Both the position numbers and the translations under genes were made by a program. The notes under the pieces are model-generated. The model was not told where the DNA came from, did not search any database, and saw nothing but the letters and a program-made list of their open reading frames with translations. Positions 6,598 to 63,099 of a DNA stretch of 64,000 bases are shown in pieces. How positions within the stretch are numbered: the first letter of the stretch is position 1; each line of letters opens with the position of its first letter. Source of the DNA: Sycobia sp. Sy_11 (lineage: Eukaryota; Arthropoda; Insecta; Hymenoptera; Epichrysomallidae); assembly GCA_018907035.1 (NCBI GenBank), contig JACCIC010000002.1:6505001-6569000 (forward strand). The letters are read 5' to 3'.

Positions 6598-9500
6598 TCT
6601 TACTTCTCTAGATTAGGGTTCCCTGTCTCTTGCGGGTCTTTTTCTGGGTTGGCTCTTGGTTGGAGGTTTTTGGTGGGATTCCTCTCTGTACGCCGCTAGA
6701 GGATCCTTCTGTCGGTCGCTTACTAATCTCACAACTCAGAGTTCTATCCTGTAAGCCACCATAATCAACCCACAAACCGTGTTCCTACCTCCCTTAAGAT
6801 GGCTCTGAACCCTGGACCACTCATCTATCCATCAAAAAGTACTCACTCTAAACTCCTATCTGGAATGGTCGTATAGGTATTGAGAAGCCAACAAGAACGT
6901 GCACGGTGTGGGCGGAGTCGCGAAGGAGGTACGAAATCTCGTCGTGTCCCAACTTGGCCGTCCTATTGAGTAGTACTTTGCGATGGCTTCGAGAGAGTCC
7001 CTGAAGTTGTTAAAATTAAACCTGACATAAAGAAGGAAAAAAAAATAAGCTCCGAGGAGAGAGAGATCATTTGTTGCGGAGAGAGGGGAGAGGGGGAAAA
7101 AAATCAGGCCGCAGAATTATTAACCGAGAGAAGTAGCGAGGGAAAAAAGAGAGTTGGGAGGTAGCAAAAAATACGGAAAGAAGGGACAAAAGCGAGGATG
7201 GGAAAGTGGGTAAGAAGTGAAGAAATGAAAAGAAAAAGGAAATGTAGGACAGTCTAGGGGGGAAAGGGGTGAAAGGGAGGAAAGATAAAAAATAAGAGCG
7301 GGATAAAATGAAAAGCAAGAAGGAGGTGAGAAGAGGTAGCAAAAGTAACGTGAATAAGAAACAAAAAAAGGAGTCACATATGGTGGAAGAATTCGCGAGG
7401 CATTAAAAAATCCTCTGCGCTGGAACGCATGCATAATTACGCCTGAAACGGGTGAGTTCCACCCCCAGCGACACACGCTCCGGGGCCACCGTCCCGGGCT
7501 TTGGGTTGCTCGCAAAATTCACGTATGCCAACGATTTCGATACGAATGTCAAATATGTCTCCCTGTAAAAATGTTCAGAAGAGAGAGAGAGATAGAGAGA
7601 TAGAGAAAAGAAGAGAGAAGAATAGAAAGAAGTGAAAACCCGGATCATTTATATACGAAAAGATGTACAAACAGGCTTGCGGAGAGGAAGGGAGAGGGGG
7701 AGACATTTTTGACTGGAAGAAAACTCGAAAAAGGACAAAAAATCGCAGGCTTGCGGACATGCCACATGAGTGTAATTGTTGGAAAATCAAAAGTAGAAAG
7801 TAAAATTGGAAGATTTATATAGGTCTGTATGTGTGTGCGTATGTAAGCGTGCGCGAGTGTGTTTATCTTTTGGATAGTATTTGAAAATCAGCGAATTAAC
7901 AGCACCCACGCAATGTGGAAGCTGCGAATTTACATATCGAGAACCATGCAATAAATTAAATGTCGCACGAGCTTGATTTCTCTCCGGTGTAGAACCCGCG
8001 TGAATATAAAAGGGAAGGCTGGCAACTAACTGGGAACGACCCTCAAGAGACGACCTTGTTCATCTCTCTCTCGTTCTCTCTCTCTCTCTCTCTCTCTCCA
8101 CGTTCACCTATATTGGAATCTGAGATTCTGGTATTACAGTAGAATCCAGTACGGCGTGGTGACAAAAAACCAATTTTACAATACCATAAGATACATATTA
8201 CTCGAGACATTTCAAACAATTAATAATCTAGCAAAACATACAAAATATCTTTCCGTGCAAAGCTATTATCATTCTAAGGGATCTGAGTTTCAAGTTGATT
8301 TAACATACTTGATAATATATTTTTTTTATTGTACCAAATGATATAAAATGAACCGTGCATGGCTGCTGCTTGGGTTAATTTAACTTTTCGGCGCTTGGGG
8401 GCGCCGTCCCAAAAATCCCCAGGTCCTTTACTACGATAATTCAACGAGCCTCGCAGATTAATAAATAACTCAAATATTCTCTGCTGTCTACTTACAGAAC
8501 ATGGGCATAAAGGACGAGTTCCACCAGAAGAACATACTCGTGTGCATCGAGGAGCTGTGCCAGCCCGCGGCGGCGACCGCTTCGTCCTCGGCGCTCCCCG
8601 ATCCGGAGCGCGCAGCCACCGCCGCGTCCACCGCCGTCCAGTCCGAGCATCCTACGTCGACGGCGACGCCGACGACGACGGGGTCGACGCAGCAGCAACA
8701 GCACAACCTCGTCCCGCACAGTTTCAGTATACTGGAAAAGTGCGACAAGTGCCATAAGTACCTCAGGGGCCTGCTGCACCAGGGTTTTCTCTGTCAAGGT
8801 GAGCCGGTTTTCATCCTCCATGTGAGAGAGATTCTCTTCCCCCCCCTCTCTCTCTCTCTCTTTCCTAAACGGCCTAGCGTGTGTAAATAAAGAGTCTTGG
8901 AGTAAGACTGAGACTTGGAAAGAATTTCCTGCTCTTTGAAATTAATAAAGGGGTGGTATATGCATAGAGTTAAGGTGGTATATTTTGTAGAGGACTAAGA
9001 ACTTACATGTACCACAGGAGAAAGGTTTTCTTTTGATGTGCTAAGTCGACCCTTATGCGTCTCATTTTCTGGATATAAAATGCTCTTTTCGCGCTCTTAA
9101 GTGAAAAAATGATCATTTTTCAGCACCGACTGTTGGTATTCCTGCTCGGAAATTAATGATTTACCTCCGTAGATGATATTGTCCGTAAATGTCTTTAGCT
9201 ATCGAAATAAATTTTCAAATTTGAAAAATTATCGTTTGAATAATAAAAAGCGGATTTTAGAAAATGTTTTACAAAATTCTTCGGCGTATACACCTGCATC
9301 GAATATATTCGCTTGTCGGCCGATGCAACAGTACACATTTTTTTTTTCAATATAGATTACTATTCAGATAATGTTGAAGAAATACACCGATTGCATAGGC
9401 TTAATAACATAATTTATACCTGATGGTGTAAAGTCCAAAACTTTTTCCCCTTTTTTTCCCAAACAAAATTCTGGCGATTATAAAATACTTGCTATGGCCA

Positions 9501-13600: not shown

Positions 13601-16600
13601 GTTAATCATCCGTTTCGATCCCTTATATTTCGACCTATCGATACCAAGTGCGATTATGTTTCACGCGATTCCAATTTACCGTGTATATACATTTCGGAAG
13701 CTTAAAGCCCCGGCCTTTCCCTGGAAAATCTTTCTTCCCTTTGCGGCCCACCCTTCTCCTCCTGATTCATTTTTTTTCTCGTTCTCTTTCGCTCGGAATG
13801 CTCGAACGAGCTGCCGAGTCTAAAGTGAGCACTGGCAGCCCGTAAATTTATGCCGCGCCCGAATAAAAACAAAACAAAAAAACCGCAATCGCAGAGCCCG
13901 ACTCGCGCATGCCGCTGGCCCGGGCCAAACAATGTGCGAGCGAGCGGGCGGGGTGCATCCTCGAAAATTCCCCGCGTCCGAACGCCTCAGCGAAATTTCA
14001 TGCCGATATTTTTATATTCGAGAATTTTTGAAACGTGGTAATTTCTACGCGCCAACGGCTTCTTTGATATATGGACCCGCGATGTGATTGAGTTCCTCAC
14101 TCGACGATTGAGGTCTACGGCATGAAGTAAAAGGAAAACAAAAAACAAAATTTTTCGATGGAGTATGTAAAAGCGTCCATTTTACGCGCTGTTTCGAGAG
14201 CGTAAAGTACAATTTAACGGACACGCGTACAAATTGCGTAATTTTAGCACGGCTCAAAAATTTCTCGGTCCCGTGTCATGAACGGCCATTCCACGGTCTC
14301 TCTGACGCTATTTATCGCACGACGTTCGTAATGTTCGACTTTACGAGCTATCAGCGGGAAAAGTCGTATCTCATACCTCCTTCCCCCTTTCATTTTTTTC
14401 ATCGCGACTAGTAAAAACCAAGCGCGATTTACGGAATTATAACGAAACCCTCGTGGGTCTTTTCATTTATCCACTTGTTTGATTTTGTTTTCTTTGTCGC
14501 CGCATCAGTGTTCGGCCTGGCGCTGTGCTCGCAGTTCGACGCGACGACGCGTAGCGCCCCGCTGCTCGTCGAGAGATGCGCCCGTGCGCTGGAGGAACGA
14601 GCCGCAACCGACGCCAATCTCGACCTCTACCAGGTTTATCACAACAGTCCGCCCAATGAGCAGACGCTCGAGCTCAGGCAGCAGCTGAACGAGGGTAAGT
14701 GCCGTTTTTATCTTTCCTTTTTTTTCGATTTGCAGAATGCAAAATTTACTTCTTAAAATGCGGCTTCTTAATCGTGAGCTGAATCATTTTTCGTCGCCGA
14801 AATCTTATTTTAATCTTATTTTATTCGCTCGTTATTTTTGGTTTTATTACGCGCTTATTGCAAATTGATTCTAATTTTTTTGCGGAGCGTGAAATGCCAG
14901 TAATGCCGAATTTAAGTCCACCTTACGCTCCACGATGACGTCAACGCATCGCAAAGAAGTTGGGGTCTATTTCAGTAATAAGTCATTTGACCATTGTATG
15001 TCAATCAAATACCATTCCGTGACGAAACACGCGTTATAAATGTCAATACATCCCGATCTATAGTTTAGTGCTCGGACGCACCGAATCGCGCAGTGGTATT
15101 AACTTTTAGCACGTGTTTTCATCACGCAATTGTACATACTTTTAATAGTCATTTATATACTTATATCATAATAGACGAATTGTTCTTGCGTTACACTCAC
15201 GTCATCGTAGCGCATCTGACGGATTTAAATTTAGGGTTAGATTCGAATCAATTGTAATATTTAAATAATTGTTATAATATTTTTCAATTTTTATATTAAT
15301 TTGCAAAATGATACACTATATTTTCTGAAATTACATAATAAATCATTCTTTATCGAATCACATGCCTGAATCGCGAAATTCTCGCGATCTCACACATCAT
15401 GTATCCATAATAAATAGGTCGTCCTATTTTTCGTCGCAACTGCATTTTAATTACTGATTCCCTCGTTTTATTTGTTTTTTTTTTCTCCTCGCACAGACGT
15501 GAAAAGCACCGATCTGAATCGTTACACTCCGCACTGCATAGCGAGCGTGCTGAAAAAATTCCTGAGGGAACTGCCCGATCCCGTAATACCGGTGCAGTGG
15601 TACGAGAAGATCCTGGACGTACTGAGTGAGTTCAATTATTAATAATAATGCATTGTATATTAGGCGAAGTGTATAATTAATATCAACAGTCTAAGGTTCA
15701 ATAACATGAGAAATAGCACATTGATTACCGGTACACGGCTTCTCATATTTATGCGTACACGTGTATATTTTTCAAACTTTCAATGTCAATTTTCAGACCT
15801 GGGCGACGAGCAGCAGTCGGCTAAGCGGCTCGCGCAGATGGTCGCCGAGCTGCCGCAGCATCACGCGAGCACCCTGCGCTACCTGATGGCCCACTTCTGC
15901 AGGATCTGCAGGCTTCAGCACTCGCGCGGCCTGACGCAGCCCCCCACGGTTCTCATTCAGGTCCTGTGCCACCTGTTCCTGAGACCGCCCTGGGAACAGA
16001 TAATGTGAGTACTTTGCCCTCGATCGATATGATTTCACCGCATTGTAAAGTCCATCGGTTCGATCGAAGTTGAGAAGGCTGGAAGTGCCGCCGGTGTAGT
16101 TTTAAGTTTTTTTTTTTTTTTTTTTAAGTTGCTGGCGTTTAGAAATCGGATCATATAGCTGGAGAAGCGTAATCGAAGTAATTTCAAATACAAATTTTAC
16201 AACAATATTTTCTTAGGTCTGAATAAGATCTCACATGACGCAACGATTATTCTGCAAAAATTACAATCCTTTTTGATTTATAAAATCGAGTGGAGGTTAT
16301 GCTCTACTTTTTTCTCTCTCTTGTATCGGGTCGGAATTTAACTTGTAGTATTCTATTAAGCGATATATCTCTTTTGCTTTTGGGTCTAAACGGCATAAAA
16401 CGTACGTGATAAAAGTTTTAGATTGAAACGGATCGTTGAATCGAAGGATTAATTAGCCGTATTAGAATAGATTGAAACACGCATTGAATCGTACATCAGT
16501 TAGTTTACAATCCGTTTCTATATTAAAAAAATTCGACATCCATTGATAAGATAAAAGAAAAAAAAGCTCAACTTTTGTCGAGTGTTTAATAAGAATAGTC

Positions 16601-19600
16601 GGACTGCCGGTGTCATTATATCTGTTTCGTAAAAAGACTGTAAGACCGACAGAAAGATTTATTAGCTTGGATCATCGATAAGAATTTAATCGGATGTACG
16701 ATTGAATGCGTATCGATCAGACGAAAATGAAAAATTCGAGCGAATCCTTATCGATGATATAACATACAAATGCGATTCGATCAGTTTCTTTTCTTTTTAC
16801 AAAAATACAAAAGAAACAACATAAAATCAAAGAATCCCGTATCGATACTAAATATTATAACGCGGACATTGTTGAGAAGTGCGCTTATGTCTAATTCACA
16901 TCTCTCTATCGTCTCTCTCTCTCTCTCTCTCTCTCTCACGCACACGCATGCACAACAGTCAAGTCGTACACAACATCGAGGCGCACATCAGGATAATGGA
17001 GCTGCTGCTGCTGCACTGCGACTGGGGTGAACGGCTGCCCGAGTTCGCCAGCGCGCCCCAGCTGCCGCCGCGCAAGGTATCGAGGCCCCAGTTCCCGGTC
17101 GCCGATTCGGCCGCCGTCTTCGCCAGCATCGAGGAGGAGGTCAATCGGGATCGGCAGATCATGGATTGTCAGAGGTAATTTAGCCTGTGCCTAATAGACG
17201 AGTATATAGTTTTGATCGATCGATCGTTCCCTTTCTCGGTGTTTTTTTTTCCTCCCTTTAATTAACGAGGTGTATGACGTTATTTCTTTCTTTCTTTCTG
17301 TTTTTTTTTTTTTTTTTTTTATATTTATTTCGATGCAGTTTCGTTTTTCTTATTCGATAGGCATGCGCGACTCTTCGCGCGCAGTGTTAATTCCTTTGTC
17401 AGGCGTGACAAGACGAATTTACAATAACGGAAGTCTCATTTACGAGTCGGCGAGGCATATCCTTGGTATATATTATAATCCGAAGCGCGTTGCCAATTTT
17501 TTGATCGGGGTCTCAAGCCAACGGCCAGTCGAATAGCACTTTTTTCTTCTTCGAAAGGCTTATTATATTCATATTTTAGGGAGAATGAGAATTATTGCTC
17601 GACTTGAAATTAATGTGAGCCGTGTTTTTGTTTTTTTGTTTAATTAACCGAGGATTATTTAGTGAATAAATACTAAATCCGGCGATACATCGCTGCTGGC
17701 TTGCACATTTACCTCCGTACATGTTTAGATTATAAGTGTCCAATCGAAAAACTGTGTTTACATACTTGGCAAATTTATTTTGGAACAGAAACTAAATTTC
17801 TTGCTGAAAGTTAATTTTAAAGAAATAAACAATATAATTTAATTCGCAGTAAGGCAGTGTATCTCGTTCCAAGTTAAATCTATATGATTGTTTAACTGTG
17901 TAAATGTGTTTTTTTTTTGTTAGCAGACTACGAATCGATATAGAAATTCTTAAAGTTTAAAATTGCAAATTCAGAAAGACGGTACATAATTTAGTAATTA
18001 TAATCACAATCAACTTTAGAATTTTAAACATCCAAGCCCATCGTTTGTAATAATTTTAGTAAGATTTCACGAAGTTCAAAATTTAGATTTAAACCGTTTA
18101 TTTATTTATATAACAAATTATAAAAGAATTACCGAAGTTATTTATTCGAATAAAATTCAGAAGAAAAACGTAATATCCTGTCCCGATAAGATCGAAAATT
18201 CAACACTACTTTCTGACAATATCGTAATAGTTTGAAAAAAGTAACGAGCGGATTTTAACGAATTTGAAATGTCTCGATTAAAGCAGCAAGGACCTGACGT
18301 CGAGGCAGCGCACTCTACAGGAGGCCGAGTGGTACTGGGGCGACATCACCCGCGACGAGGTGAACGAGAAGATGATCGACGCGCCGGACGGCACATTCCT
18401 GGTGCGCAACGCATCCTCCAAGGGCGGCGAGTTCACCCTCACATTGAGGAAGGGCGGCGCCAATAAGCTGATAAAGATCTATCACAGGAGCGGCAAATAC
18501 GGGTTCTCTGATCCGTACAATTTCAACTCGGTGATCGATCTCGTGGATCACTACAGGAATTGCTCGCTCGCCCAGTACAACTCGACCCTGGACATTAAGC
18601 TGCTGTATCCGGTGTCCCGTTTTCAACAGGTATTCGATCAAACGGCTGTATTATATCGAGTATAAAAGGATAAAATAATGAAGAAAAAAATTATATTTGC
18701 CTCAAAAAAAAACTATCTTCACGTATTTTTATCTTTTTATTATTAATTATTAATTATTAAAATTATTAAAATCTTCATAGCAATGATTAATCCTACGTGA
18801 GTGGAATAAGACGTAGTCCATGAAAGTTTTTTAATTGTCTTTCGTTATAATAAATCGCTCTTCATCGAATTGTTGACAACAATAGAAGATTATTTAATGA
18901 TGAGAATTTTTTAATAAGTAAAACATGCTTTATTAATCTTCTTAATTCTACTAAGACGTGTTAACTTGATTATCCAACAAGTTGCTCTCAGTTATTTTAC
19001 TTAATGAAAGGCGCTCAAAAATACTTTCACAAGCTACGTCACATTCTGTGAACGTAACATCAATTTAAACAAGAATTTAATTTTATAGTGTACTAAAAAT
19101 ATTATTATCATATATATATTATGTAAAAAATCTGTGAATTTTCTTGACAAGACTCCTTTAAAAAAAAATATTGGTAATATTGTTTCTTTTTATTGAGATG
19201 CTGTGCTTGTATTTACGCAAACAAACTTATGATCATTTAGGATGACGAAATTGCAAGTACCACGGACATGGCCAAAGTTTTCCAAAAATACATAGAGTTG
19301 GAGAAGGAGGTAATGGAGACAATGAAGCAGTATCAGGAATCCTCGGATACCTACAGTCGTACGACTTTCGAAGTGCAGTTGAAGCGACAGGCGCTCGAGG
19401 CCTTCGCCGAGGCCATCAAAATGTTCGACGATCAAATGAAGCTCCACGAGAAATTCCAAAAGGAGGCGCAACCACACGAAATTGCAAAGTACGCAACATT
19501 CCATTATTTTTTCCTATTGCAATTAAGATTCGAAAATATTAAATATATTCAACGATCCAATTCGCTCTTTTCAGTCTTTCGGAGAATGCGGAGTTACTGA

Positions 19601-44300: not shown

Positions 44301-45174
44301 AATACATATGAAGATTCAAATACTTTAATTCCTAAGACATTGTTTTGATCTCCAAATACGAACTCTAAATCGATTGGATCAGATATTGAAACTTTTCTTA
44401 ACAATCAGTCCATATTTTGATTTAAAATTTTCCCGTATTTTCCACCAATATTTTTTAACTTAATAAGGTGGGTGGTTTCTTGATGGAATGTCGTAACGTA
44501 AGAAAGAAGCTTAATTATTTTCCCGCCACTCGTGCTCTGGTCCAATTCGAAATAGACGCATTGAAACTTTTATTGGTGAATTTAAGACGAGCGATCATAT
44601 TTTGACTTGAACCTAGACGTAATTAAATTGTTATGATAAACAGTTACCTTATAAATGCAAAGACCTCATAAATACCTTAGCCTAGAACAAAAACCTAACT
44701 CAATTTCAGAGGGTGAATTTTTAATTTTAAGGATTCATAATCAGCAACTTCAAAAGCATGAGGATAGGATAAGAGTTGTTTATATGTTTATTTATACTTA
44801 TTCATCAAAGGAAATCAACAAAATTGTGAAAACTTTGATCTACCATTGACATTTTATATTCATTAATAACCACTTTGATGTTGAAGTCTTGATTCGCAAT
44901 GAGTATTTACCTGAGCAATAGCGATTGAAGAAATTTTACTAAAAAATTGTACTAAAACTTCAACTGTTTTAAAACAATTATTTTATACTACAAAAAAGTA
45001 TAGAAATAAAACATAAATTAAAAAGAAATTAATTATTAATATTTCTTTTTATTTATTTTTTATTGCAGAATGTTTAATTGTGCAATTCGATTTTTTAATA
45101 CATTATCCTTAGTATAATTTTCCCAATTCTTATTTTAAACAGTATTTCTCTTTTAATGTTCAGATCGTGCACAT

Positions 45175-45345: not shown

Positions 45346-45409
45346 ATGGCTTCCTTGTATATGTTAGTTATTTTACTTTTTTTGTTGTGCATAACGTACG
45401 TTCAAGCAG
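45346..45409 (+). CDS. Signal-peptide exon of Cys-rich peptide copy 1
   Basis: Starts at ATG in context tctcaATGG, encodes 21 residues with a Leu/Ile/Val/Phe-rich core, and ends GCAG|gtaagt in phase 1. It aligns codon for codon with the exon at 54413-54476. Confidence 0.85.
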
Positions 45410-46481
45410 GTAAGTAAAAAATAATACCTTACATATCAAGTCATTTTTAGTCATCTCTGAAATTCTATCTACACGTGTTCAAATAATTCACATTGGATAA
45501 TATAAGAAATACATTTTTAACATTGGTTTATTATACCATATTTATCCAAGAATTGATGGTCAGAAGCATTGATTGTTGCAATAAAAGGAAGTAGAATTTC
45601 TTTTAAACATATTGATTGTGTCTTAACTACGTATCAACATTTTAGTTTATGAAACGGTTAAATGTTCGATATCTTTATTTACGACAAAGTTCATAGAAAA
45701 ACATAAAATTAATAATTGAGACACATTGATTTCAAAATCGTTTACAAACTGTGAGTATCACAATATACTTTATAGTCAAAGTCACAGTGTATGTATATAT
45801 ATATAATCTTAATTTACTCCAATTATTATTGTACGTAAAATATTTTTGAATTTGATAAAGTTCTACTTGTCATTACTTTTTTTTTATCAAATCAGTAGAC
45901 TGTAGCTTAAATTTAACGATTAGTTGGTTAATTTATCAGCAGTATCCTAAAAAGACCCGAACCCTTCCATGAATTTGCAAAAACAGTTTACTAAAAAAAT
46001 TGTAGGGTTTCAAAAAACCAATTCAGCGTTGGCCATGTCTTTGATCTTCACTTAAGTTATCAAGGACATTTCAAGGTGGAATTAAATTTAAATTTTTAAG
46101 TAGAAACTCCTATTTTTTTAATCCATAAATCGAAAAAAAAGTTTTTTACATGACCTTGCATTGCCCTTGAAAACTGAAGTCAAGATGAAAGCCATGGTCA
46201 CAGCTGAATTTTTTGGTAGGATATCATTTTGCAAAGTTATCCCGGGGTTCCAGTACTTTTGTGACATTCGATATCTAAATGTAATACACTTAATTTTATT
46301 TGCATGTTTATTTATTGGATTCATTTAAATGCTGCCTTTATAATTTACAGCGTGCGACAAAGAAGATTGTGATAACAATTGCCACAATACAAAGCTCGTC
46401 AAAGTTGCTGGTAAAGGAGTATGTTGGCATGGTAGCTGCGAATGTTGCCCACCGAAAAGCACAGGCAAAGCTTGCAAGTAG
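45346..46481 (+). CDS. Secreted 8-cysteine CS-alpha-beta-like peptide, copy 1
   Basis: Two exons, 45346-45409 and 46351-46481, joined through a phase-1 intron of 941 bp (G|gtaagt ... ttacag). The product is 64 residues. Exon 1 is a hydrophobic signal peptide (about residues 1-21, ending near QA). Exon 2 is a mature peptide of about 42 residues with eight Cys spaced C-x4-C-x3-C-x13-C-x4-C-x1-C-C-x8-C. The C-x3-C plus C-x-C pair and the Gly two residues before the fourth Cys (GVC) fit the cysteine-stabilised alpha-beta scaffold of insect defensins and scorpion toxins. The mature part is basic at its C-terminal half and acidic near the start. Poly(A) signals lie at 46512-46517 and 46564-46569. 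Identity as a secreted disulfide-rich peptide is strong. Antimicrobial, venom or signalling use is open. Confidence 0.85.
46351..46481 (+). CDS. Mature-peptide exon of Cys-rich peptide copy 1
   Basis: Acceptor taatttacag; stop TAG at 46479-46481. It encodes all eight cysteines. Longer and out-of-phase readings of the same stretch lack the pattern. Confidence 0.87.
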
Positions 46482-46511
46482 GATTTATTATCGAACCTCC
46501 GATGTTTTCGC

Positions 46512-46569
46512 AATAAAGTAATTACTTTATAATAATAGTAAGAGCGAAAATTGTTGTTATCTAAATAAA
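46512..46569 (+). terminator. Poly(A) signals of Cys-rich peptide copy 1
   Basis: AATAAA at 46512-46517 and 46564-46569, 31 and 83 bases after the stop. Confidence 0.55.
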
Positions 46570-46579
46570 ATATTCTGAT

Positions 46580-48228
46580 ATAAACCAATCCAGTTACGTT
46601 TTCTTAAAGTACATAAATTCCTGGTAGAAATTCATCACATTTAATATATAATGTGTGCCAATTCTCATCGATCTCTTAATCTGTAATGAAATGCTTTTTA
46701 CGACAGCTTCTTAGCATGTTATGGAATCCTCGTAAAAAGATATTTTAAAGCTATAAGTATGACATTTTTTATAGCAACGCGATACTTGAAATGAAATTTT
46801 CGAATTGACTAATCTAAACAATGGCTAGAAAATATCTAGTGAAATACGAAATTAAAAAATGGATTCTCATTTGCTTGTTATCATCAATAAATTAAGTATT
46901 TATTGTACATTATAAATGTTTTTCAATGGATTTGTTGGGAGTATGTATACATAAAAATTAGCAAAAAAAAATAATTATTATAAAGTGTTTCGGGCGTGAG
47001 CGAACACTATGATTTTTTTGAATAAACACACGAAAGAACACTTTCTTACATCGCTCACACTAATCGTGAACCTTAATCACGATTAGTATCATTAATGTTG
47101 ATGGGTAAAATGAATAATTAAAACACAAGTTTGTTAAAAACAATAACTATTTAATTGTCGTGCAGAAGATATTATATAATTTACAAAACGAAACAAAACC
47201 GACTTTGATATTTTGTATATCAATGTTTCACTGACAAGAGTAGTTTCTTGAGCGCTAAGTTGCATTATTTTTCTTAACAGAATGATTTTGTATTTCTTAT
47301 TGGTGGGAGAAATAACGGATTTAGTTAGGCGGAGACCATTGGTCAAAAGAATTTAATACAAGAATGTTAAATTGCACGAGGAGAGAGAAGGGGAGGGGTT
47401 TGACAGATAATGGCATGGAACGCATTATCGTGTGTACAGGTACAGATATGCATGTCTATACCTGATAGGTCTTACATATTGACCGCGCATAAATTTCCCG
47501 GGGTTTCTCCAACATTCGTCTACATAACTACATTACTTTAATTGCTGGCATTAACTGGATTATAATAGTACAAGAAAATGCAATATAAATAGAGTTAACT
47601 TATAATACATCTAAATTTGTCTACATAGTATTTTAAGTATACTGCCATAAAATACCTTTCAATAATATTTGATTTGGAATATAAGGTGTTTGGTTACAAA
47701 CATAAAGTATACTATTATATTATATATAATATAATACTTTATTACATAAAGTTATATAATATTACATAAAGTTATTATAATAATTATAATAAAGTATTAT
47801 TATAATATAATACAGTCATTTAAAATTAAAAAATATTGATATAATATAGATATCAATATTTTCATATATCAGAGGATATTTTATTTCATACAATATGTAT
47901 CAAATCATGTAAATATTATGGACCTTATGTTTAACAAATAACTTTTGTTTATTGCATCTATTCGTTCTACTTCAAAATACAAAATTTCAAAACATGGAAC
48001 AATTACAAAATTTTGTATAATAATAAAAGAAACCTGTTTTAAATAATATTATAAATAAATAGTGAGTTATTGCTAATTTTAGTTAATTCTGTTCTTTATT
48101 TACATTAATTCTACATTACTGCGGAATTTCAAGCAGATTTGCAAAACCAGGTAAAAATAAGAAAGTTTTCAAAATTTTACATTATTTTAAATATTATATT
48201 ATACTAAAATTCTTAATATTATTTTGAT

Positions 48229-48240
<12 letters not shown>
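46580..48240. other. AT-rich intergenic DNA with a nested inverted repeat
   Basis: No gene recognised. A perfect 11-bp hairpin (47059-47069 with 47077-47087) sits beside GTGAGCGA (46996-47003) and its complement (47051-47058). A TA array follows at 48242-48286. Confidence 0.6.
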
Positions 48241-48286
<46 letters not shown>

Positions 48287-48289
48287 TTT

Positions 48290-48975
48290 TCAGCCAGCAA
48301 AGTTATTTACAAAAGTACTCATGTCCGGACAGAAATTGAGTGAGGTAGAAATCCACCTCATCGTATCTTCTCTCTATCCACGACCGACCTCGGGTATGAA
48401 CCGTTTCGTTCACCGTCCTCGTTTCTTTGTTGTCCAGCGTGCTGGCCACAATCTGAATATGTCCGTCCGTTTTTTCATCGCAGCCTCTTCCCTCCCGATC
48501 ATTGCACTTCGTTCATAAATTCTTTTTCGTTCTCTCGCTAATAGATCACTTGGGATTATGCCTGCTATCACGAAAACTGCTTCTTTCAGCACGGTTCGAT
48601 ACGCGCACGCAATTCTCAGTACTCCAACTCGTTGAATATTTTTCATGGCATTTGCCTGTTTCCTAATATTCATAATGTTCGCTCATAGTTCCACTCCATA
48701 TAATAAGATCTTGTGAGTTACGCTCAGAAAGAGTGTGCGTACGCTTTGATTGGGCCCGTTCGTATTGGCCATCAGTTCGCGCACAGCCTTTTTCTTTTTT
48801 GTTACTTTTTATGTCACGTTGTTTTCAATAGCAAGTCTTACAGTCAATAATGTCATTGAAACCACTGTGTCTATACTATGGCCACGTAACAGCAATAACT
48901 TTTGCAGCACTAGCTGCAGTCTATGCTTTGTCATCCATTCGGACACATGTCTCCTGACTTGATTCAGCTTAAGCT
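48290..48975 (-). mobile_element. R1-like non-LTR retrotransposon fragment (RT C-terminal region)
   Basis: The minus strand reads WMTKHRLQLVLQK near 48930, then MKNIQRVGVLRIACAYRTV, VIAGIIPSDLLARERKRIYERS and a FLSGHEYF segment near 48310. These are the sequences after the RT core of R1-clade elements, where similar VQR-x-GALR-x-ASAYRTVS and IPVALLA-x-ER motifs occur. The copy at 60.1-60.9 kb has the same segments, so both belong to one family. This fragment is truncated at both ends; its 3' side abuts a TA array. Confidence 0.8.
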
Positions 48976-49274
48976 AAGCCAAGCCGTGGTCTAGCGGTGG
49001 TCCTGAACCCTATCTTCAATCACTTCGATTTTTCTTGCGTACTCGGAAGCGCTACAGTTTGTATATATTCAAACTATTACATGATATTAGGTTGTCAAAT
49101 ATCTCCCTTCTGCTTTTTTGCTCTTCATTCAATGCTTTATAAAAAGTGTTACAGTGGTCGGATTTGCTTCAAATATGCGCCGTTTTGTTCGATAATCTGT
49201 TTCCATCTAGACGGCAACTTCATAATACCCCTCTCCTAGAAACCCCTCTCCTTATTTGCGAAGAACTCGGGCAG

Positions 49275-49568
49275 TCACAGGACAGGATTCAGGTGGTAAT
49301 CACTTGGCGCTATGGCCGGGCTATATGGTGGATGCGATAAAACCTCCCATCCGAACTCCCGTAGCTTCTGACGAGTCATCAACGAAGTGTGTGGTCTGAC
49401 GTTGTCCTGGTGGAACACTACACCGTTCCTCTTGGCCAATTGTGGACGCTTCTGGTCGATAGCCTGCTTCAAGCGGTCCAGTTGTTCACAGTAGATGGTA
49501 GAATTAAGCGTCTGGCCATATGGGAGCAGCTCATAGTGATGATTCCCTTCCAATCCCACCAAACACAC
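49275..49568 (-). pseudogene. Mariner transposase catalytic fragment
   Basis: Contains HYELLPYGQTLNSTIYCEQL, KRPQLAKRNGVVFHQDN and the HPPYSPAIAPSDYH box with 34 residues between the second and third Asp. It stops soon after where an internal deletion begins. Confidence 0.9.
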
Positions 49569-49773
49569 AGCAAAACCTTCCTGGCGGCCAATCCCGGCTT
49601 GGCCACTGTTTGGGACGGTCCACCGGCCTTGTACTACGACCGTTTTCGTTTAATATTGTCGTATGTGATCCATTTTCCGTCGCCAATCACCATGCGCTTC
49701 AAAAATGGATCGAGTTCGTTCCGTTTCAGCAGCACATCCCAGGCGTTGATACGGTCCAGAAGGTTTTTTTGTG

Positions 49774-50133
49774 TCAAATCATGCGGCACCCAAACATCAA
49801 GCTTTTTTTGTATCCAGCCTGTAGATGGTTTAAAATAGTTTGATAACTAATTCTCATCTCCTGGGCGATGTCACGAGATGCCACATGCCGATTTAACTCA
49901 AGAAATTCCATGATTTGATCGGTATTCGTCGTCACAGGTCTTCCACCGGATGGTGTATCCATGGTGTCGTTTTCACCGGCTGTGAATCGTCGAAACCATT
50001 TCTCTGCGGTTCGCAGTGATAGCGTGCCATCTCCCAAAACACCATTAATCTCACGGAACGTTTCTCTAGCGGATTTGTCTTTGACAAAGGAAAACTTTAA
50101 AATAGCACGAATTTCGGCGTTAGTGAACTCCAT
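49774..50133 (-). pseudogene. Mariner transposase N-terminal (HTH) fragment
   Basis: From ATG at 50133 an open frame of 119 codons covers the HTH region: ETFREINGVLGDGTLS, RTAEKWFRRFTAGEND, SGGRPVTTN, ASRDIAQEMRISYQTILNHL. It then shifts frame before the VPHDL motif. Confidence 0.9.
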
Positions 50134-50316
50134 GTTTACACGTTTATAACTTTTAAACGCAATATCCAAACTAATCATGCACAGCGTCGTTTTGTACGTT
50201 ATGTCAAAACCTTTCAAATGATGTATAGTATTGCCAGATACGAGCTCTGTAGCGCTTTGTATATAGGCGCGAAATTCATAAGACAAAAAGGCGGAAGGGA
50301 GATATTTGACAACTTA

Positions 50317-50940
50317 ATATATTATTATTATAATTATAAAAATGAATGAGAATATCTTAGACAGTTAAAATTGGATAAATATGTACCGACACAATAGTCG
50401 GGAAGGATCAATTTATGATACAAGGGGTAGTACACGAAATTGAAAGAAACTAAGGAAGATTATCTACTGTATATAATTTTGTGATATAACATCTATGAGA
50501 AAAATTATCTTAATTTGTTTTAGTAATTCAAAAATTATTAAGCAATATGAATTCATGTTTTTTATTTTAAATTTAAATATCATGAAAAATTAGTATTAAG
50601 AGAAATTATATATATATCTTCTAATTATTATTAAAAAATAATTTTGAAAAAGAATTAAAAAATATGCCCCCTATTATGCTTCCTATCGAGCACCTACTAT
50701 AAACAGAACTTTTTTTACTTACATTAGAATATTTAGAGATTTTACTCGTAATCAAATAAATCGAAAGGTACTACCTTATAAAGGAAGGTGAGACGCTTCC
50801 AACCATCATTTTTCGCTCATGGCAACTCTTTCTGAACTTCACTTGAGATAATTTTCTTCGGCATTTATTTCGTATTCCATAAGAGCCTATTCCCCAAGTC
50901 AAATTTTCGATCTCGAATTTCTCAAATATCGGCACGATTA
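50317..50940. other. AT-rich intergenic DNA
   Basis: No gene or repeat recognised. Confidence 0.6.
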
Positions 50941-50944
50941 GCTC

Positions 50945-50972
50945 CTGACGATGAACCGCAGCGGTTCGAAAC
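50945..50972 (+). other. Hammerhead-core-like motif
   Basis: CTGACGA (50945-50951) is followed by a perfect 5-bp stem GAACC/GGTTC with loop GCAGC (50953-50967) and then GAAAC (50968-50972). This is the order of the conserved strand of a hammerhead ribozyme, with one extra T before the stem. I could not find convincing stems I and III or a cleavage site, so activity is doubtful. Confidence 0.25.
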
Positions 50973-50974
50973 GT

Positions 50975-51275
50975 TGGACGCCAAAGGCTTAAGGTAAAGT
51001 TTATGGTAGTGGGGGCAGTCGGTTGTTCTTTACTAACATAGAATATTGTTATTATTTTTATTTTATTTTATTATTAATTTTATTTTTATTTTTAATTTTT
51101 AATCTAATTTATTTATAGTAGCATGTTGTATTTCAGATTCGTTGGGCTTGACTATAAACAAGGACAGATTGACCGTCATTATTTTATTTAATATATTATA
51201 TTATAAAAACTGTAATACCGATAAAAATATTTATTAATTTTATTCAAAACAATCAACATAAATACAATTTTTAAT
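50975..51275. repeat. Second copy of the palindromic-repeat family (half element)
   Basis: Shares GGACGCCAAAGG, GGGGGCAGTC, TTTACTAACATAGAAT, the AAAT tracts, TTTCAGATTC, AAGGACAG and AATACCGATAAAAATATTTA, in order, with the loop (reverse complement) and right arm of the 41.8-42.4 kb foldback element. Only one arm is present here. Confidence 0.7.
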
Positions 51276-51279
51276 TTTA

Positions 51280-52795
51280 ATTTTAATCTGCGCGTAAAGT
51301 TAAAATAAGGATACCATAAATTCTGTGAAAGAAACATTCTTTAATTTAAATCTTAAGAAATTTTTTTAAGTCTAAATCTTAACCTACAAGTTCCTATGAA
51401 GGTTAAAGACACTAATTGGAAAAATACATTTTTAGAACTCAGATAGGACCACTAAATCCATTGGATTGGAATCAGTCAACTTTGAATTAGACATTGTTAC
51501 TTTTATGATAAGATTAAAGTATTTTGGTATCTAAAATTTTCTGTGCTATATGATTCAAATTCTGGGACCTAAAGAGGTTTATGCTTTATCGATAAGACAT
51601 TGTAATATAAGAAAAAACTTAATTATTTTTCAACCAGTTCTACTCAGGATAAACTCGAAATAAATATTTATTCGTTTATGATTATTGAGATTATATAAGA
51701 TGGTCCATCACTATCTAAACTTTATCCACACGTATTGAGATCAGTATAAAAATCAGTGATCTAAAAAAATTTTTAGATTATTTCTAAATACCTTGATTAT
51801 ATTCTGTGATTCATGTATATATTTCATAAAATAAATTTGCAGACGATAATAGACTTTTTTATTGGGATATTTATAAATTTATTTTTAATTATTGTTATTT
51901 ATTGTTGGTATTTATTGTTAATTAATCTAATATAATTATACAACAGTGGTAGAGTATAACACATATAGAGTATAACTAGAGTATAACAGAGTATAACAAT
52001 ATAACACACAGTGTGACTGAACACATTATTACAAAAATATGAACTTAAATATAGATTCTTAACGAATTATATACACAGCATTTATATTATATGTATTCCA
52101 ATTATGTATAATTTGAAGATTTTAGAGAAGTTTTTTAATTATTTCGTTGTAATATAATTATTGTTTTTCTGTGCAATGTCCCCTATCTCAGATTTTGTCG
52201 AGATGATTACGTAACATATTTCTTTGTATATAGCTTTTTTATGAATTATATCTAAAAAATCCCCTTAAATGTAATCACAATACATTTCAATAAATATATA
52301 ATATTTCAGAGTAAATAGCATTTTTTTCTGATAATCAATTAAATTGATTCTCTTAAAGTTCCACACATAATTCTTCATCTGAAAAACCACTTGATCGTGA
52401 ATTAACTCGCACGTATTAAAACGTCTGGTTCCTGTAACTCATTTATATTATAATAGTAGACGTAGGTTTGATAGGAAATAGCAATCGTTCAAATTGTAAG
52501 GGCACATCTGCGGGGGCAAGAGATTTTCAAAATTCTTGTACCTAGTATACTGCGTACTCCGTGTTCATAGCTGTATCGATTGATATTCTCCCTCCAGCTT
52601 TTCTAACATAACATTATTTTTATGACATCACGCGAACGGCACGTATCTGACTTCCTCCTCCCAGCAGATGGTAAATTGAGCGATATGAGCCACAAGCATG
52701 ATGCAAGAGTAGAAAGAAAAGCGAATCCAACATTGGACAGACACATAGGCATATAAGAAATAGCCCCTAGAGTCCGAATGGAGCAACTTGAAGAT

Positions 52796-52845
<50 letters not shown>

Positions 52846-53540
52846 GATTGACCGAGTTTCTAAAATCTGATATATTTCAATGTTTCAATATATATACAGA
52901 AGTTTAAATTGGTTAAAAGTACTTATGTGCCATATTAAAAAAAAAATACAAAACAACTATTTAGTTTATTTATGTATGAAATATTTTGTTTAGTTTATCC
53001 TTTCGAAAAGGTTTACTATTATTATAAATTGAGGTACATTTTAGCTTATTTTTAGGCATTATTATTACATTTTCACAGAGTTACTCAAGTGATTGTGTAC
53101 GAATAAGTTTAATCTGTGGGTAAACTTCAATTATTAATTCCTATATGCTTTCGACAAGCTGACCCTATCGTTTGATGAATAGACATACAATCCATTATTA
53201 CTTGAAATAGTTCCATTTCCAATGTCAGGTAATTTTGTTGGAAACTCATTATGTTCTATTCTAAGATAAACTCCCATATTAGTTTTTAATTGTTTAATAC
53301 GCCGACACGATTCCAAATTGATGAAGATTTAAATATGATATTAGAATATCCTATCACGATCAGTAAGGTTTACGAGAAACAAATGAAGTTATATCGCCGC
53401 CCATTATAGCCGAAGATTTGAGATTCTTTTTTAAATCAAAACCTTAATTTTAGTTATTAATTTTACTCAATAATGAATTTAGATTCTATGCTTCTACTTG
53501 TATATTTAACGACAAGACTTTAAATACGCTAAAATGTGTG
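51280..53540. other. AT-rich intergenic DNA, partly similar to 44.3-44.6 kb
   Basis: The stretch 51430-51690 resembles 44320-44570 in the same orientation; both share AAGAAA-AA-CTTAATTATTTT followed by CTCGAAATA or TTCGAAATA. Tandem decamers AGAGTATAAC lie at 51951-51997, and a GA array at 52801-52842. No gene recognised. Confidence 0.45.
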
Positions 53541-53541
53541 T

Positions 53542-53556
53542 GTCGCCACCTGGTGG
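53542..53556 (-). promoter_or_regulatory. CTCF-like insulator motif
   Basis: On the minus strand CCACCAGGTGGCGAC, close to the CTCF core CCAC-N-AGGTGGCGC shared by flies and vertebrates, with one mismatch at the last GC. It lies about 0.85 kb upstream of the second peptide gene. A single motif is weak evidence. Confidence 0.35.
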
Positions 53557-54304
53557 TAGATATACGTAACTCCAGTACGAACGACGAGACTAATGCAGCA
53601 ATGCCTTATTATGTACAACATTACTATACTATGGGTGCGCGAAGTAGAAAACATGAATAACTTTTTTTTTAATTTATCATGCATTTTAAACTAATACATT
53701 TTCTAGGTTCGTCTGCAATACCCGAATCGTGATCATACCAACAAACGATGTCTCTTTGCAATATTAGAATAGAATATAGAATAGTATAGAAAATAGAGTA
53801 CGATTATACATTATAGATATGGATAAGATGTAAATAAAATTACTGTAGCAGAATTTTTGATAATCATTTACACGAATCCGAATTTAAAAATATATAATTA
53901 TCATAGTATAGCAAAATTAAAAAATGTAAATAGTCGCATATAAAATAGAATGATTTTACTATTTATACGACCACACACGCCTATCCCGTTATCTCGATTT
54001 TCTTTCTTTAATCTTCTACGAGAAATACAAACATAATTATTTTTAAATGTAATATCTCTACTTTTATAGTACACAGGCAATCCTAAAATTATAATTTATC
54101 GGAAGAATCAGAGATGCAGATACTTTTACAGATAGTTCTATTTATTTTACACATTTATGACTTTTTTAATAATTACATATGCTTTAATTATATTTAATCG
54201 AAGTTTAAAATCTAATAAAATTATATATATTATAATTTTCAAAAAAACTAATAGTGCAGAATAATCTCTCATAAAATAAAATGTGTACACAGAGTAACCG
54301 AATT

Positions 54305-54311
54305 TATATAA
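54305..54311 (+). promoter_or_regulatory. Candidate TATA box of Cys-rich peptide copy 2
   Basis: TATATAA 108 bp before the ATG at 54413, almost the same distance as in copy 1. Downstream, TTACATCTCA (54333-54342) resembles TATACATCTCA just before the ATG of copy 1. Confidence 0.4.
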
Positions 54312-54406
54312 CTTTGGCCAATGCTAAATTTTACATCTCATTAATTGAATAACTAATTATAGAGTAACTTCTCAAGACTTCAATTCTTTTCTAAGAACCG
54401 AAAATT

Positions 54407-54476
54407 ATGGCAATGACTTCGTTATATATTTTACTTACTTTCATTTTTTTAATTTACATAACGAGTATTCTCTCAG
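54407..54476 (+). CDS. Signal-peptide exon of Cys-rich peptide copy 2
   Basis: 23 codons plus one base from the first ATG, or 21 plus one from the second. From the second ATG it has exactly the length (64 nt) and phase of the copy 1 exon, and many identical codons, including the ATAACG near the end. Confidence 0.86.
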
Positions 54477-55201
54477 GTGAGTAAAATTGTACTCTAAATC
54501 TTTGATTGATTTTTAATCGCTATTACAATTATATGTGTATTCTATCCATTTCTTTCACTAATTCAGATATTGACATCACCAATAATACAGCAATAAATAG
54601 CAGCTAAAAAAGGCTTTTTTCGACGTATTTTTTCCTATCATCTCAAAGTTTGTTTCGAATAATAATCTGACCATTATTGCTTTTATATTACATTTATTGG
54701 CATAATTGATAGAAGTGAAGAGAAACTGATAAAATAAATAATTTTATTCTGATATATCTTCTAATTTATTACAATATTCGTGCGCGATAATCGATATGCA
54801 CAGATCGTCGATATTTTATTAGATAAAAGCAAATTATTATTTTATTTGCAATAAAATTAACAAAAGAAAAAAAGAAGAAAACAATTCAGCTATTTAATAA
54901 TAGATTTTTTGATATTAAAAATGACATTAAAACATTTGATATTAAAATTAATTACATTTGATATTAAAAATAACTCTACTATATATATGGTTTGGAATAA
55001 CGTTTGAAGTTAAACACATCGCGCTTATTTAAGCAATCATTGCGCATCTATTTTCTTTTGATTACAGATTGCCATAAAGCCGATTGCCATAAAAATTGCG
55101 ACAATCACAGACTCGGCCGAGGAGTGTGCTGGCGCGATAGCTGCCACTGCTGCGGAGTGAACAGTAAACGTAGGGCTTGCAAAAAGGGCTGGTGGGGATA
55201 G
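54407..55201 (+). CDS. Secreted 8-cysteine CS-alpha-beta-like peptide, copy 2
   Basis: Two exons, 54407-54476 and 55068-55201, with a phase-1 intron of 591 bp (TCAG|gtgagt ... attacag). Two ATGs are possible: 54407 gives 67 residues, and 54413 gives 65 and is the one that aligns with copy 1. The signal peptide is Ile/Leu/Phe-rich. The mature part has eight Cys spaced C-x4-C-x3-C-x9-C-x4-C-x1-C-C-x8-C, the same as copy 1 apart from a loop four residues shorter between Cys3 and Cys4. It has GVC before Cys4, many His, Arg and Lys, and a Lys-Lys-Gly-Trp-Trp-Gly end. The final Gly could be an amidation signal. Much more basic than copy 1. No AATAAA is obvious close downstream. A real paralogous gene is likely; the function (defence, venom or other) is unknown. 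Confidence 0.87.
55068..55201 (+). CDS. Mature-peptide exon of Cys-rich peptide copy 2
   Basis: Acceptor gattacag; stop TAG at 55199-55201. It is GC-richer than its surroundings, unlike the signal exon, which fits coding constraint or recent selection on the mature part. Confidence 0.88.
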
Positions 55202-60065: not shown

Positions 60066-61340
60066 AGTTACTTCGCGCGCAACTATCATCTGATTCAGTT
60101 AAAGCTGAATCAGGTCATGTGACGAGTAACCGAACGGATGACAGACCACGGACTTCAACTAGCGCTGCAAAAGACCGAGTTACTGCTACTAACTCGCAGA
60201 CGTATAGAGACGGTAATTCCGATCATGTTAGGGACGGAAAGATTGGAGACCAGGAGTGAGGTAAAATATCTTGGGATAACCATGGATACGAGGCTGAGCT
60301 TCTGGCCGCACCTACGAAACGTGACCAATAAGGCAGCTGAAAAGACCAAGGCTTTAAGCAGAATAATGGCCAATACGAAAGGACCTAGACTGAACGTACG
60401 AAGACTGCTGATGAGCGTTACTCAGTCGATCCTGCTTTACGGGGCGGAGGTATGGGCCGACGCGATGAATATCAGAAAATGCTCGAACACCATGAAAAGC
60501 GTACAACGGGTGGGCGCGTTGAGAATTGCGTGCGCGTATCGCACCGTGTCCGAGAGGGCGGTTTTCATTATCCCAAGGGTCTTTTCCATCCATTTACTCG
60601 CGGCCGAACGGAAACGTATTCACAAGCGGAGTTCAAATGTTGCAAGGGAAGACGCTACAACAGAAGAATAGATAAAGACGATCGAAACGTGGCAGACACG
60701 GTGGACGACGGACGAACGTGGACAATGGACGAACTGACTTATACCCGAAACCGGTCCGTGGAAGGCGAGACAACACGGGGAGGTGAACTTCTAGCTTACC
60801 CATTTTCTATCTGGACATGGATACTTCCATAAGTACCTCTACAGGATGAAAAGGATTACCTCTCCGAAATGCACGTACTGCAGATGGGCTTGGGACGATG
60901 TGGAGCACACGTTCTTTGTTTGCGACCATTGGACCGAGTTACGACTAGGGCTATAGACGAGGATAGGCGAGATCACGCCAGAAAACCTAACGAAACTTAT
61001 GACAACGGATACGGATAGCTGGCCGTTTATCGCAAAATACTTTACGAATGTGCTACGGAGCAAAAAAGCAGATGGATGTCTGTATGAGAATCTGGGATGA
61101 AAGGTATGATCGTGAAATGACCACGTAAGGACAGCCGCCCAGGCTGTAGTAATGTGTATAACAGTTCCGGATTGTGTCGGTGCAACACGGAGACATGCGT
61201 GTAGTGCGTAGTGACATCGGATTTGTGTCGAGTCGCACATATTTCGATGGCTGGTGTCCAGGAATGTCTTGGAGAACGGTCATTGGAAATGCATAAATAG
61301 CATTCACAGACTTGTCAAAAAAAAAACAAACAAAAAAAAT
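60066..61340 (+). mobile_element. R1-like non-LTR retrotransposon, 5'-truncated, with A-rich tail
   Basis: The + strand encodes the part after the RT core: WMTDHG-like start near 60130, LALQKTELLLLT, EVKYLGITMDTRLSFWPHL, LLMSVTQSILLYGAEVWADAM, VQRVGALRIACAYRTVSERAVF, LLAAERKRIHKRSS. Then, after a frame break, FLSGHGYFHKYLYRMK and a CCHC knuckle, C-x2-C-x8-H-x4-C (Cys codons at 60870, 60879 and 60921). The coding part ends near 61070, followed by a 3' UTR and an A-rich tail at 61317-61339. R1 elements normally sit in 28S rDNA, but related clades are dispersed, as here. Confidence 0.88.
60107..61075 (+). pseudogene. R1-like ORF2 C-terminal remnant
   Basis: The main open piece (60138-60671, 177 codons) covers the post-RT thumb region. 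It ends in a stop, and the matching continues in other frames to the CCHC knuckle. A stop also interrupts the NQVM-RVTER segment near 60120. It cannot encode a full protein. Confidence 0.88.
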
Positions 61341-61390
61341 GATACTACTACTACAACTACTACTACTAATAATAATAATAATAAAAATAC
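61340..61390. repeat. TAC/AAT trinucleotide repeat
   Basis: ACT/TAC units passing into AAT units, directly after the A-rich tail and between two convergent retrotransposon fragments. Confidence 0.85.
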
Positions 61391-61617
61391 TAATAAGGAT
61401 ATATAAAGATTATAAATAATATTATGGATTCAAGGGAGACACACACATAACTTATATTAACACAATAAATCATGCGCTCTTCGACTACACGAAGAGCGTA
61501 TCTCCTCTGTACAGCCGCCATATACCTGTGGTACTTTTCGTACTGCAGTGCGTCGGTCCGAACGACATCGTTGTAAAGCATGACACACTCAGTATCTCGC
61601 AGTAGCAAGCACTTGCT

Positions 61618-62007
61618 TCAGCGATGTGGTCCTCCTACGTTGACTATGATCATGCAAAGAGAGGCTGTCACCATCGCCGCCTTGTCTGCCGATCTCCAAA
61701 TATGTTCCCAGAAGGTGAGCTTCGTATCTAGTATCACCTCCAGGTACTTGACGGATGCAGTGGTCGGGACCAACACCTCTCCAATAGTTAGAGATATAAA
61801 GATGCGCTTCTTCGTGAGGAGTACAATCTCAGTTTTGGCTTCCGCTATTTCTAGCCCTAGGTCGCTCATCCAACGGCGAATTCTCTGCATGGTCTGATCA
61901 AGGCGCGTCTGTGCCAGTGTCATTTTGCGCGCAATAAGGACAGCTGTCACGTCATCTGCATACCCAATCAGCAAGCAGCCTTCCGGCATATCCAACAGAA
62001 GGATCAC
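61618..62007 (-). pseudogene. R1-like reverse-transcriptase fragment with YADD box
   Basis: 129-codon open frame. It carries LLIGYADDVTAVLIARKM, RIRRWMSDLGLEIAEAKTE and LTFWEHIWRSADKAAMVTA, the RT palm motif C and thumb of an R1-type element. The catalytic YADD is intact, but the rest of the ORF is broken. Confidence 0.9.
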
Positions 62008-62480
62008 ATCATACGAAAAATTTCATAGATCGGGTCCCAGGATGGAGCCTTGGACCGCGCCAAACGTTAGTTGCTTTCGCTTAGAGTCCTCTGCCGTGGC
62101 TTACAGAATGGATCTGTGCTTCAAATAATCTCCGATGATCTGGAGTAGGTATCTATATACATTGAAGTTCTTTTCCAATACCCTCAACATGTTTGTCCAC
62201 CTAACCGAGTTGAAGGCGTTTTTGACGTCAAGTGTTACAAAAAGACACACGATCCGGAGAAGTCATTCCCCTGCTCCGTAATCCTGGCCACCTCAACTAC
62301 GTCCTTGATAGTACCTATAGCGAGCACGACCCGCGAACTTCTTCGGCATCGCTTGCTTGCAGGCTTGACGCATCAGATGTGTTCTAGATTCAGTCACTGC
62401 CTTCGTATCGTCGCAAAGCGTTGCGCTTCTTGGTAGTTCCACTAGGAGGCCATCTCCGCGGCCTAGCGCGAGTGGGAAAA

Positions 62481-63086
62481 CTACTCGTGATCCATCCTCG
62501 CGACGATCCGTCTGGCTGGGCGACGTTGGACCGCCGCCCTGAATGGCGTGACATCATCAACTCGGAACGTGATGTATTGGTGTTCGTTGGTTGTATAGTA
62601 TTCGATCACCCGCCATTCCTGCACGCGTGCGGCCAGAATCTCCGTCGTGAAGAATACATCAGGAATGGTCTCCCTATATCCGTGCCTCCGAAAGATCGAT
62701 GTAGATCCAGTGTTCACGACAACCAGACCTAGCCTGGATGCCATGTCCAACACTTGTCTTCCCCATAGAGTCCGGCAAATGTCCCCCCTCCGACTCGAGA
62801 GTTTTGCTGTTGAAATGCCCAGCCTTAATCCCGGCCTCAGCCGGCTGTCCCTCCCCCACTCCAAGGTAACTCTTTTGTTGCTTTTGGCAATCCATGGGTC
62901 AATTTTTTTTAATTTCATTCCTGCAGATGGTCGGCCTTCTGGACCCTTCAACGTTGAGCTCGATAAGGCAGCCCCCCAACACATGCCTGTAAGGGCTGAC
63001 TCATGTCGGACCATTGTGCAGGAGTATAGCGCGCTATGGTGCACTATTCCACCTCCGTCTTCTCGAGCTTCGCACCCCAACAACAA
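62481..63086 (-). pseudogene. R1-like endonuclease-domain fragment
   Basis: 201-codon open frame whose last 100 residues match the C-terminal half of the AP-endonuclease-like domain of R1-type elements (FRRHGYRETIPDVFF, EWRVIEYYTTNEHQYITF). In such elements the end of this stretch is SDH; here it is NEH, so a key Asp is gone. The first half has no recognisable motif in this frame. Confidence 0.75.
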
Positions 63087-63099
63087 CGTGTTTCACTCT

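Follow-up and report, generated by a model that had tools for sequence, protein, structure and literature searches.

A stretch of 64,000 nucleotides (nt) from the wasp Sycobia sp. Sy_11 (contig JACCIC010000002.1; C113:6505001-6569000, hereafter the window) carries two members of what is probably a tandem cluster of nasonin-like peptides, with host defence as its main role, a reading that we hold with moderate confidence. The encoded peptides very probably adopt the cysteine-stabilised alpha-beta (CS-alpha-beta) fold. The region read comprised 163 kb, made up of the window, 29.7 kb to its left and 69.3 kb to its right; coordinates above 64,000 continue the window numbering past its end. Five copies of the peptide gene, four intact and one broken, lie on one strand of this region over a span of ~39 kb:

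Gene 1, exon 1: 45346..45409, + strand, 64 nt; putative signal peptide MASLYMLVILLFLLCITYVQA; phase-1 donor GTAAGT
Gene 1, exon 2: 46351..46481, + strand; mature 8-Cys peptide of 43 residues (coordinates include the stop), net charge +2 (K+R minus D+E)
Gene 2, exon 1: 54413..54476, + strand, 64 nt; putative signal peptide; phase-1 donor GTGAGT
Gene 2, exon 2: 55068..55201, + strand; mature 8-Cys peptide of 44 residues, net charge +6
Gene 3, exon 1: 65278-65395, + strand, 118 nt; likely signal peptide followed by an acidic spacer of 16 residues
Gene 3, exon 2: 66510-66637, + strand; mature 8-Cys peptide
Fifth copy: exon 1 at 73429-73546, exon 2 at ~77.61-77.74 kb (C113:6578429-6582740), + strand; duplicate of gene 3, between genes 3 and 4
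Gene 4, exon 1: 83985-84048, + strand, 64 nt; putative signal peptide
Gene 4, exon 2: 84407-84552, + strand; mature 8-Cys peptide

The first-pass annotation of the window had described two two-exon genes on the same strand that share a phase-1 intron and an eight-cysteine order, and the coordinates, splice sites and spacings of both were confirmed. Both predicted genes have consensus splice sites. Their introns (941 nt in gene 1 and 591 nt in gene 2, each with the acceptor ACAG) lie directly behind a putative hydrophobic signal peptide, and exon 2 encodes the entire mature peptide. The identical length of exon 1 claimed for the two genes holds if translation of gene 2 begins at the second ATG (64 nt) and is lost if the alternative in-frame ATG at 54407 is used (70 nt). 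The two genes had also been called a pair; both are there, but the description was incomplete, as three more copies, one of them broken, lie past the window. The two precursors are 50% identical. The cysteine spacings are 4,3,13,4,1,0,8 in gene 1 and 4,3,9,4,1,0,8 in gene 2, giving the exon pattern C-x4-C-x3-C-x13/9-C-x4-C-x-C-C-x8-C. Across the four intact copies the spacings are 4,3,9 (13 in gene 1),4,1,0,8 (10 in gene 3) and the net charge ranges from +2 to +6. All four intact gene models have the phase-1 intron. In gene 3 it is located behind the spacer, in which 16 residues, four of them acidic, separate the likely signal cleavage site (placed by eye) from the splice junction before Cys1. 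The C-terminal tails are KKGWWG in gene 2, where the sequence suggests possible amidation, and KNWLWKFVSI in gene 4; genes 1 and 3 have no Trp-containing tail.

To a reading of these copies as chance or decayed sequence without working genes we give almost no credence. In a six-frame translation of the window, the six- and eight-cysteine patterns occurred at two sites only, genes 1 and 2, and in none of 40 first-order Markov shuffles of the window. A looser eight-cysteine pattern occurred four times in the 163-kb region and in none of 20 second-order shuffles of that region. The loci were then compared by blastn (E (expectation value) <=0.05, low complexity masked). Matches among genes 1, 2 and 4 were confined to exon sequence and the splice borders directly beside it, including one 27-nt match that straddles the start of exon 2, as expected for real genes under selection; introns and flanks were not conserved. 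Gene 3 gave no blastn match to genes 1 or 2, and the exception to the exon-bound pattern was a 22-nt match between the gene 3 intron and DNA upstream of gene 4 (E 6e-4). By the Nei-Gojobori method (NG86), nonsynonymous divergence (dN) was below synonymous divergence (dS) in the mature part in all three pairs (0.31/1.36, 0.35/0.51 and 0.50/1.90), on few sites and with dS partly near saturation. For the signal peptide, also on few sites, it was so in two of the three pairs, the exception being genes 1-2 (0.387/0.38). A search for exons that resemble signal peptides and end in a strict donor, using thresholds chosen after the first genes were known, returned seven overlapping candidates on the + strand, all within the five copies, and three unrelated candidates on the - strand. 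What favours decay is the broken copy, one in five; against it stand four intact copies of identical layout.

The broken copy aligns with gene 3 at 79-89% identity in the aligned parts. Its exons match gene 3 at 105 of 118 positions (exon 1) and 104 of 128 positions (exon 2), so that exon 2, in which the reading frame is broken, has been kept no better than the introns and flanks. An integrase-like open reading frame, recognised by eye, lies inside the intron of this copy.

Upstream of two of the genes a shared candidate promoter element was found:

12-bp element AGATCGTGCACA: 45162..45173, + strand, 184 nt before the gene 1 ATG
12-bp element AGATCGTGCACA, second occurrence: 83782, 203 nt before the gene 4 ATG

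These are its only two occurrences in the 163 kb. When the four upstream regions were shuffled, none of 300 shuffles gave any pair sharing a 12-mer with at least six G/C, a threshold set post hoc. TATA-like boxes lie ~100-115 nt before the ATG in three of the four genes and were given no weight because TATAWAW occurs ~20 times per kb in the region.

To examine the fold, structures were predicted for the peptides of genes 1 and 2. The gene 2 model has a helix at residues 3-12 and strands at 17-21 and 24-28, with a predicted local distance difference test (pLDDT) score of 82.5. The gene 1 model, of modest confidence (pLDDT 67.2), has a helix at 3-12 and strands at 21-25 and 28-32. Both models thus show an alpha-helix followed by an antiparallel beta-hairpin. 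The cysteine framework C...C-x3-C...C...C-x-C is present in each of the four intact copies, the broken copy being left out. Fold and profile matches include nasonin-1, Centruroides defensin-1, cobatoxin and tamapin, each weak singly. Together with the two models, they back the CS-alpha-beta pattern first noticed in the sequence.

A profile of the four mature peptides was searched against the PDB and gave eight matches, led by nasonin-1 (E=0.024, not significant alone). Seven of the eight are of the defensin or scorpion-toxin type by name and the eighth is 'venom protein 51.1'; scorpion defensin and toxins trail nasonin-1 closely (E 0.13-0.64). Smaller queries gave other matches. In the PDB, gene 1 alone hit a teratocarcinoma-derived growth factor at E 0.048 and, at E 0.93, an integrin module; gene 2 alone matched PIT54 protein (E 7.9); and with a two-sequence profile the integrin module (E 6.1) came up beside nasonin-1 (E 5). 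The growth-factor, integrin and PIT54 matches were discounted, since none of them appears with the four-sequence profile. The growth-factor and integrin matches, the modest gene 1 model and the weak E-values of the structural matches could point to a different fold, such as a knottin, with the CS-alpha-beta pattern a coincidence. We consider this very unlikely, given the C-x3-C and C-x-C motifs in register in every intact copy, the helix and two strands in both models, and the defensin and scorpion-toxin entries that replace the growth factor and integrin in the four-sequence list.

Searches of larger collections returned no close relative. In a 5.8-billion protein database, a two-sequence alignment query gave zero candidates and a four-sequence query produced 59, all with E above 10; as the peptides are very short against a database of this size, the outcome speaks against a close relative in it and no further. 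Pfam and NCBIfam gave nothing near cut-off, the weak matches (E>=0.013) being taken for hydrophobic signal peptides or chance. Among these, a Shiga toxin B-subunit model that scored 12.9 bits where the cut-off is 204.5 was given no weight, and models of mussel myticin and pollen-coat protein reached E 0.33-0.49. No match to an insect-defensin Pfam model was listed up to E=10, in a search whose HMMER filters discard weak matches. In the literature, no eight-cysteine version was recognised from titles and abstract openings among the matches listed, with subscription papers mostly uncovered.

Nasonins are 14 defensin-like peptides (nasonin-1 to -14) reported from Nasonia vitripennis in 2010; that report describes them as mostly without propeptide, with a short n-loop and tandem duplication, places a phase-1 intron after the signal peptide in nasonin-1 and -2, and gives mass data favouring three disulfide bonds in nasonin-1 (PMC2853521; structure 2KOZ). 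The cluster described here resembles them in several respects. Genes 2, 3 and 4 match the nasonin-1 spacing C1-x4-C2-x3-C3-x9-C4-x4-C5-x-C6 exactly. All four intact copies have its short n-loop of four residues between Cys1 and Cys2, and in all four predicted gene models a phase-1 intron follows the signal peptide, in gene 3 behind the spacer. Tandem duplication is present as well. With cleavage sites placed by eye, no propeptide is apparent in genes 1, 2 and 4, while gene 3 departs by its acidic spacer. In contrast to the six-cysteine nasonin-1, all four intact copies have eight cysteines, the extra two directly after Cys6 and 8-10 residues later, and, unlike nasonins, genes 2 and 4 carry Trp-containing C-terminal tails. 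Sequence similarity to nasonin-1 reaches just the E-value given above. Because the cysteine number differs from that of nasonin-1 and homology is not significant, we call the genes nasonin-like rather than nasonins. The cluster probably represents a new branch within a known kind of peptide and not a new fold. The first-pass claim of an undescribed family is upheld at the family level only, the eight-cysteine form having no close relative in the protein database searched, and does not extend to the architecture and Cys1-6 spacing, which match nasonins.

Other CS-alpha-beta peptides were also compared. Classical insect defensins (navidefensins, royalisin and sapecin) have the framework in common. 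They differ by a longer n-loop and a propeptide, according to PMC2853521, whereas here all four intact copies have C1-x4-C2 and three of the four have no apparent propeptide. The same source describes navitricins as two 8-Cys defensin-like Nasonia peptides aligned with fungal family III. They likewise place eight cysteines on a CS-alpha-beta scaffold, but their phase-1 intron is given there as inside the mature region, in contrast to its position before Cys1 in all four genes here. The fold and Cys1-6 framework are also common to the short scorpion K+-channel toxins (cobatoxin 1, tamapin and BmBKTtx1) and Centruroides defensin-1, all high in the fold and profile lists. These scorpion peptides have six cysteines.

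The first-pass annotation had offered immune or venom-type as the two options for function, and these were the correct ones to weigh. If the cluster serves defence, the signal peptide would be removed next to Cys1, without a propeptide in three of the four copies, leaving a predicted alpha-helix packed on a beta-hairpin. Disulfides Cys1-4, 2-5 and 3-6 would form as in defensins; a fourth bond between Cys7 and Cys8 may pin the C-terminal tail, or the two may instead rearrange with Cys1. Microbial membranes would be bound and disturbed by the cationic gamma-core (G-x-C-x4-C), the Trp tail perhaps contributing in two copies, and the site of action would presumably be blood or epithelium, within the animal's own defence. 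The cluster may have grown by tandem duplication followed by divergence, as reported for nasonins. In the nasonin literature, nasonin-1 is active against two Gram-negative bacteria and inactive on all Gram-positive bacteria and fungi tested, and infection raises three nasonins (-1, -2 and -3).

Alternatively, the same CS-alpha-beta peptides may be aimed at another animal after release in venom or ovipositor/salivary fluid, for example damping host melanization or blocking ion channels instead of killing microbes, a possibility that we regard as less likely. It gains from the scorpion K+-channel toxins cobatoxin, tamapin and BmBKTtx1, short n-loop CS-alpha-beta peptides among the nearest folds, and from nasonin-3, described as a phenoloxidase/melanization inhibitor. 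In Anagyrus a nasonin is called a likely venom component. However, the occurrence of nasonin-3 in venom is called unclear in one passage, quantitative PCR in Anagyrus showed neither organs nor lines to differ significantly, and the DNA holds nothing that separates secretion into venom from secretion into haemolymph. A bolder and rather doubtful proposal is that an eight-cysteine, short-n-loop branch, with its Cys6-Cys7 doublet and tail-locking fourth disulfide, has undergone expansion in this lineage and is directed at other animals in venom or host manipulation, as an insect counterpart of the scorpion short-chain toxins derived from defence peptides. A role in a tissue such as gut, reproductive tract or salivary gland, or in symbiont control, apart from systemic immunity and venom, appears improbable. 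In its favour, nasonins other than -1, -2 and -3 are described as unregulated by infection or too weakly expressed, and nasonin-6 as remaining elevated through diapause. The passages drawn on here beside PMC2853521 come from PMC3873987, PMC4508827, PMC13340311, PMC4035087, PMC11818254, PMC10542623, PMC10531655, PMC8035746 and PMC3308954. As to distribution, a table of ten Hymenoptera lists nasonins in Nasonia alone (PMC4508827) and a homologue is named in Pteromalus puparum (PMC10531655).

If host defence by nasonin-like peptides is correct, nasonin-type peptides, defined by a short n-loop and no propeptide, gain an eight-cysteine form. The four intact copies, varying in loop length, tail and charge, would then provide a natural series for probing what a fourth disulfide and Trp-bearing tails contribute, and the cluster would be useful for the question of immunity versus venom. 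Genes of this sort would probably escape similarity-based annotation, because they are short, split and without a match in the protein database searched.

Further copies were sought in the animal's own genome (621 Mb, 472 contigs) with a 301-base stretch over gene 1 exon 2 and with the gene 1 and gene 4 peptides. Outside the cluster, the peptide queries matched only C402 (E 0.28), where the DNA resembles retroelement sequence by eye, and C416 (E 1.0, with two stops). Gene 3 was missed by both peptide queries, so the genome-wide count is incomplete and further divergent copies elsewhere are possible.

The surroundings of the cluster had been described as holding no flanking gene of known function, which overlooked a gene within the window. 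Exons of a phosphoinositide 3-kinase (PI3K) regulatory subunit (p85) lie at 15664-19597 (+ strand) and encode RhoGAP, SH2 and inter-SH2 domains; a C1 match below threshold lies at 8465-8887. The p85 SH2 exon is 94% identical to its best database match over 87% (among the best 120 of 373 matches). The last domain-bearing p85 exon found is ~26 kb upstream of gene 1. Between genes 1 and 2 lies a mariner-type transposon (49084-50320, - strand) with a Mos1-type helix-turn-helix domain and 37-nt terminal inverted repeats that are 92% complementary. Fragments resembling R1/TRAS-type retrotransposons without long terminal repeats were recognised by eye at 60123-63092 on both strands, where 62484-63092 gives a weak endonuclease match (E 0.09), and also at ~69.5-70.5 kb. 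A 51-nt direct repeat occurs at 44504-44554 and 51612-51662, the two copies being 73% identical and 7.1 kb apart.

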